Shown in pieces: positions 28,281-28,428 of a DNA stretch of 64,000 bases. The notes beneath the pieces are model-generated. The model did no database searches and had not been told where the DNA came from. It saw only the letters and a list, made by a program, of their open reading frames with translations. The position numbers and the translations under genes were made by a program. The stretch's first letter is position 1. Every line of letters starts with the position of its first letter. The stretch comes from Sipunculus nudus (Eukaryota > Annelida > Sipuncula > Golfingiida > Sipunculidae). The stretch spans positions 50,023,178 through 50,087,177 of the forward strand of contig CM049307.1 in NCBI GenBank assembly GCA_026874595.1, in the 5' to 3' direction.

Positions 28281-28428
28281 CTCGGGACATAGGGGATACC
28301 AGATGAAGCCCCACGCTGGTGGCGCCGGAGCTCTGGCCAAAGATGGTGACCTTGTTAGGATCTCCTCCGAAGCTGGTCCAGCATCCCAAAGTTACCAGGG
28401 GCAACGTCGTCTCCCGTAGACATGAACA
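28281..28428 (-). CDS. Esterase (-) exon 4, nucleophile elbow, disrupted
   Basis: Acceptor cattttgcag, donor gtcaga. The incoming frame reads [19 protein letters not shown] and then stops at 28355-28357. After a junction at about 28368-28373 the other frame reads [17 protein letters not shown] and on to LVSPMSRG. The length of 148 bp breaks the phase: with the missing 3n+2 bases the outgoing phase would fit exon 5 exactly. No GT-AG micro-intron can explain it, because the two parts are contiguous. Confidence 0.88.

Follow-up and report, generated by a model that had tools for sequence, protein, structure and literature searches.

The Pfam family PF00135 (COesterase) includes type-B carboxylesterases, cholinesterases and neuroligins. 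In the window, i.e. the whole stretch of 64,000 nucleotides that was analysed, a minus-strand locus, probably from an animal, is, by its sequence, derived from this carboxylesterase/cholinesterase family. Its coding region consists of two pieces, both of which match the family profile well above the curated cut-off of 27 bits. The first piece covers profile positions 1-164 (E 1.7e-47, 163 bits) and the second covers positions 178-515 of 515 (E 1.6e-64, 219.1 bits). In contrast to members of the family, the esterase gene is devoid of 13 profile positions and its frame is broken.

The active site can be compared with that of acetylcholinesterases. Both the GxSxG serine region (GQSSGA) and the histidine region (GTFHTAD) are present in the DNA and align with the acetylcholinesterase counterparts, and the serine and histidine presumably have a catalytic role. 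In the acid region GITSEDG (26914-26919, minus strand), an Asp residue occupies the position of the acetylcholinesterase Glu, which we take to be the catalytic acid, and a Glu residue is found one position earlier. The corresponding sequence in a paralogue present in the window is GVTSNEVG. The Asp residue of GITSEDG reflects either a natural variant or a one-residue shift.

Gene model and convergent paralogue

The esterase gene extends on the minus strand from 33531 to at least 21183, and ten of its exons can be recognised; in the final model, every internal junction has an AG acceptor and a GT donor. Exon 1 (33343-33531) carries the start codon and encodes MLAFSAVLFCLLKIANGQ...QLRFA. The Pfam match starts at residue 18, and the N-terminus, judged by eye, looks like a signal peptide. 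Exon 2 (29766-29921) is flanked by AG and GT sites and is in phase 0. Exon 3 (29011-29158), which has matches among PDB sequences, features the HGG region, with GPI at its end in phase 1. The lesion is located in exon 4 (28281-28428), which is 148 nt in length. Exon 5 (27231-27430) is followed by exon 6 (26892-27051), which encodes the acid region, and by exons 7 (26084-26280) and 8 (25253-25385). The histidine region, GTFHTADMPY, is found in exon 9 (24585-24759), and exon 10 maps to 21183-21367. The borders initially set for exons 8-10 were rejected, as stops were present in exons 9 and 10. Once the three exons were re-bordered at other AG/GT sites, the frame was open and the phases matched those of the paralogue.

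Exon 10 terminates with a phase-1 donor, implying that one last exon follows. Thirteen and 18 filtered candidates for this exon were obtained for the two genes, and the best pair, with a score of 30, was unconvincing. Of the eleven exons reported in the preliminary description, ten were recovered, while the eleventh was not singled out by the search, and a lesion located there would have escaped notice. For exons 1-10, the claim that exons and splice sites are intact outside the lesion holds. A stop-free segment of 549 nt is formed by exons 1-3 together with the part of exon 4 that precedes the lesion, and another of 1140 nt by the remainder of exon 4, from the FGGDP block, and exons 5-10. The third-position GC content of these two coding segments is 0.50 and 0.59, respectively, versus 0.35 in introns, indicating that the exons have kept a composition unlike that of introns.

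Exons 6-10 of the paralogue map in the convergent orientation at 2061-12553 on the plus strand (2061-2217, 4747-4922, 6264-6399, 11329-11503 and 12357-12553; Pfam COesterase, E 2.7e-35). Counted from exon 6, start phases are 0, 1, 0, 1 and 2 in both genes, which exhibit 45% identity over 275 aligned codons. Over the same codons (exons 6-10), dN is 0.47 and dS is 2.75 (pS 0.73); dS is saturated, and the dN/dS ratio of the paralogues is uninformative on recent change. Exon 4 of the paralogue was not found in the window, and hence neither the lost letters nor a microhomology can be read from it.

A reverse transcriptase fragment (14782-15519, minus strand; RVT_1, E 4.2e-09) sits between the two convergent esterase genes, and, on visual inspection, the adjoining ORFs at 15520-16358 resemble additional reverse transcriptase pieces. 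An ORF at 53675-54232 (minus strand) matches the Pfam CDK2AP (cyclin-dependent kinase 2-associated protein) family (E 2.1e-19). The ORFs at 41569-44845 (minus strand) presumably encode a DPH7-like WD-repeat protein, and no Pfam match was obtained for the pieces at 41569-41838 and 44456-44845. Repeat units at 60141-60598 and 58379-58648 are translated in the ORF list as ...NSCARI... / ...LLIRAHE.... No Rfam match at gathering scores was found in the window. A scan of the 28250-28480 interval for promoters and terminators, carried out with bacterial models that are not applicable to an animal gene, detected none of either.

The gap in exon 4

On the minus strand, the junction reads ATG CTG GAC CAG / C TTC GGA GGA GAT CCT. 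The lesion spans positions 28371-28373: the CAG codon of LDQ ends at 28373, a single C is found at 28372, and the TTC codon of FGGDP starts at 28371. Beyond LDQ, the incoming frame encodes LRRRS and then encounters a TAA stop (28355-28357), which is the sixth codon past LDQ. Both the stop and the AGC codon of GQSSGA (28330-28332) are on the minus strand; the latter is downstream of the stop and outside the incoming frame. The AGC codon aligns with FGESAGA of acetylcholinesterases and, from knowledge of the family, we take it to encode the catalytic serine. The two frames, the stop and the position of the serine codon bear out the frame break placed directly before the serine elbow in the preliminary description. 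A functional COesterase needs an uninterrupted frame through this elbow; here, as assembled, the frame is interrupted by the TAA stop and by the absence of 13 positions, and a disabling lesion within homologous coding sequence, as is typical of a pseudogene or a null allele, is found instead.

The absent profile positions (165-177) correspond to 39 nt, and only 1 nt is present, resulting in a net loss of 38 nt (3n+2). The phases of exons 5-10 are consistent only with 3n+2 missing bases, in agreement with the earlier estimate of about 38. Because both flanks are strongly conserved, the gap is far beyond chance.

The distance between LDQ and FGGDP is highly constant in relatives. A spacing of 13 residues was observed in 38 of the 38 PDB chains shared by two sets of matches (60 of 130 and 60 of 92 matched sequences), although many of these chains are near-identical acetylcholinesterase or neuroligin entries and are not independent. 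For four neuroligin-1 chains, the match was extended by one residue. A search of genome contigs with a 55-residue query gave 177 relatives, 80 of which, all bacterial according to their record titles, were kept. The same spacing is found in 79 of the 80, as established for 50 by a script testing for DQ and for 29 more, in which a different residue takes the place of Q after D, by reading the rows. The proposed family spacing of about 13 residues is thus confirmed. The lost piece also conforms to the xAALxWVxxNIxx helix that had been suggested, as W occurs at position 6 in 50/50 and N at position 10 in 49/50 of the bacterial relatives counted by column. The remaining one of the 80, a carboxylesterase from Paenibacillus fonticola (L001, near 2501), carries the FGGDP block, and the 30 codons upstream hold a stop and no family sequence; this gene is possibly another broken copy. 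Twenty stretches of genome contigs matched the pattern of the N-terminal piece and two stretches of viral contigs matched that of the C-terminal piece, and none of them was confirmed as a relative.

A tblastn search with each of the two pieces (E up to 1) identified no second exon 4 in the window, although this search and the motif search reported here could miss a diverged copy of such a short helix. The only match outside both esterase genes (15402-15283, minus strand, E 0.77) is weak and is inside a reverse-transcriptase ORF. A fairly strict regular expression of the helix motif, run in six frames, matched at 31635 (minus strand), within intron 1, and at 59831 (plus strand); as neither site is followed by FGGDP, the two matches were discarded.

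Origin and age of the lesion

What the sequence itself shows is the gap with its net size, the stop, and exons 1-10 that are otherwise intact. The explanation that we favour, with a probability of about two in three, is a recent deletion of 38 bp from exon 4 of the esterase gene on the haplotype that was sequenced. The CTT at the junction is a possible candidate for microhomology; no repeat and no homopolymer were found at the junction itself. The loss would remove the helix that joins GMLDQ to FGGDP, immediately ahead of the nucleophile elbow, and the resulting frame break would lead to a stop after five codons, before the catalytic serine. As at least six exon junctions are located downstream of the stop in exon 4, nonsense-mediated decay of the esterase message is expected. 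We infer that the copy would be null, giving rise either to a degraded message or to a non-functional protein some 188 residues long that lacks the serine, acid and histidine. The null copy has probably either remained polymorphic or reached fixation only very recently, and paralogues, one of which is partly contained in the window, may have made its loss tolerable.

No second lesion was detected in 1689 coding bases (549 + 1140 nt). Given three assumed indel rates, with indel-to-substitution ratios assumed to be 0.08-0.2, 210-382 disabling events (stops, changes in splice dinucleotides and frame-breaking indels) are expected per unit of neutral divergence. Since no further events were seen, the lesion, if real, would be younger than about 0.8-1.4% neutral divergence, an upper bound that depends on the assumed rates, on exon borders chosen to be intact and on splice sites selected by the analysts. 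In many invertebrates heterozygosity is of a similar order, and a lesion of such age could therefore still segregate.

A single lesion known from a single assembly argues against a real deletion, as a local assembly or consensus error would likewise appear as 38 nt missing from a gene that is intact elsewhere. The full exon would then be present in the genome, the 38 bases having been dropped, or two haplotypes having been badly merged. This explanation, which we consider less likely, at about one in four, fits the finding of only one lesion across ten exons and the presence of an AT-rich tandem repeat array (28154-28275) that abuts exon 4. However, the array stops about 95 bases short of the junction, the junction lies outside homopolymers and repeats, and the junction 15-mer is unique within the window. 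The odds assigned to a real deletion versus an error are a matter of judgement. The data bear out the original picture of one visible lesion, young if real, in a gene of the named family that is intact elsewhere; among the three readings offered with it (young pseudogene, segregating null allele or assembly error), they favour none.

Splicing around the lesion could in principle keep the locus functional, and by arithmetic several joins preserve the frame. Exon 4 plus the missing 38 nt amounts to 186 nt (62 codons, phase 1-1), and exon skipping thus keeps the frame; the same holds for a donor at 28395 (CTG/GTAACT) joined to exon 5, and for acceptors at 28364 or 28361 joined to exon 3. We regard this explanation as very improbable. 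Both exon 4 skipping and the 28395 donor drop the catalytic serine, whereas the 28364/28361 acceptors retain it but lose the STGDD...LDQ block and show no pyrimidine tract by eye, and the window searches revealed no homologous exon that could serve as an alternative. In the preliminary description, in-frame splicing around the lesion was regarded as a refutation. Frame-keeping joins do exist on paper, but because exon 4 skipping loses the catalytic serine, an in-frame transcript alone would be no proof of a working enzyme. By analogy with neuroligins, it is conceivable, though most improbable, that exon 4 skipping or the internal donor may yield a stable, serine-less, non-catalytic protein. 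The deletion would in that case mark the birth of a non-enzymatic paralogue and not a death. An old, fixed pseudogene would also have a broken frame, but is hardly credible given intact splice sites, an exon composition unlike that of introns and the lack of a second lesion.

Comparison with known pseudogenes

Among the papers listed by a literature search, titles and abstract openings contained no description of the esterase lesion. The locus is ordinary in kind: it represents a well-known enzyme family and is either broken, as a copy or as an allele, or incompletely assembled, and neither a real null nor an assembly error would surprise a specialist. If real, the lesion adds one more recent null to a multi-copy enzyme family and provides a marker of presence/absence variation in the species. 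If it is an error, the case calls for caution with automatic annotation, by which the esterase gene would be split or truncated. The lesion is known from one assembly, whereas the polymorphic pseudogenes of human genomes, as outlined in PMC11576641, are segregating; these pseudogenes are likewise disabled by a lesion while the rest of the gene is intact.
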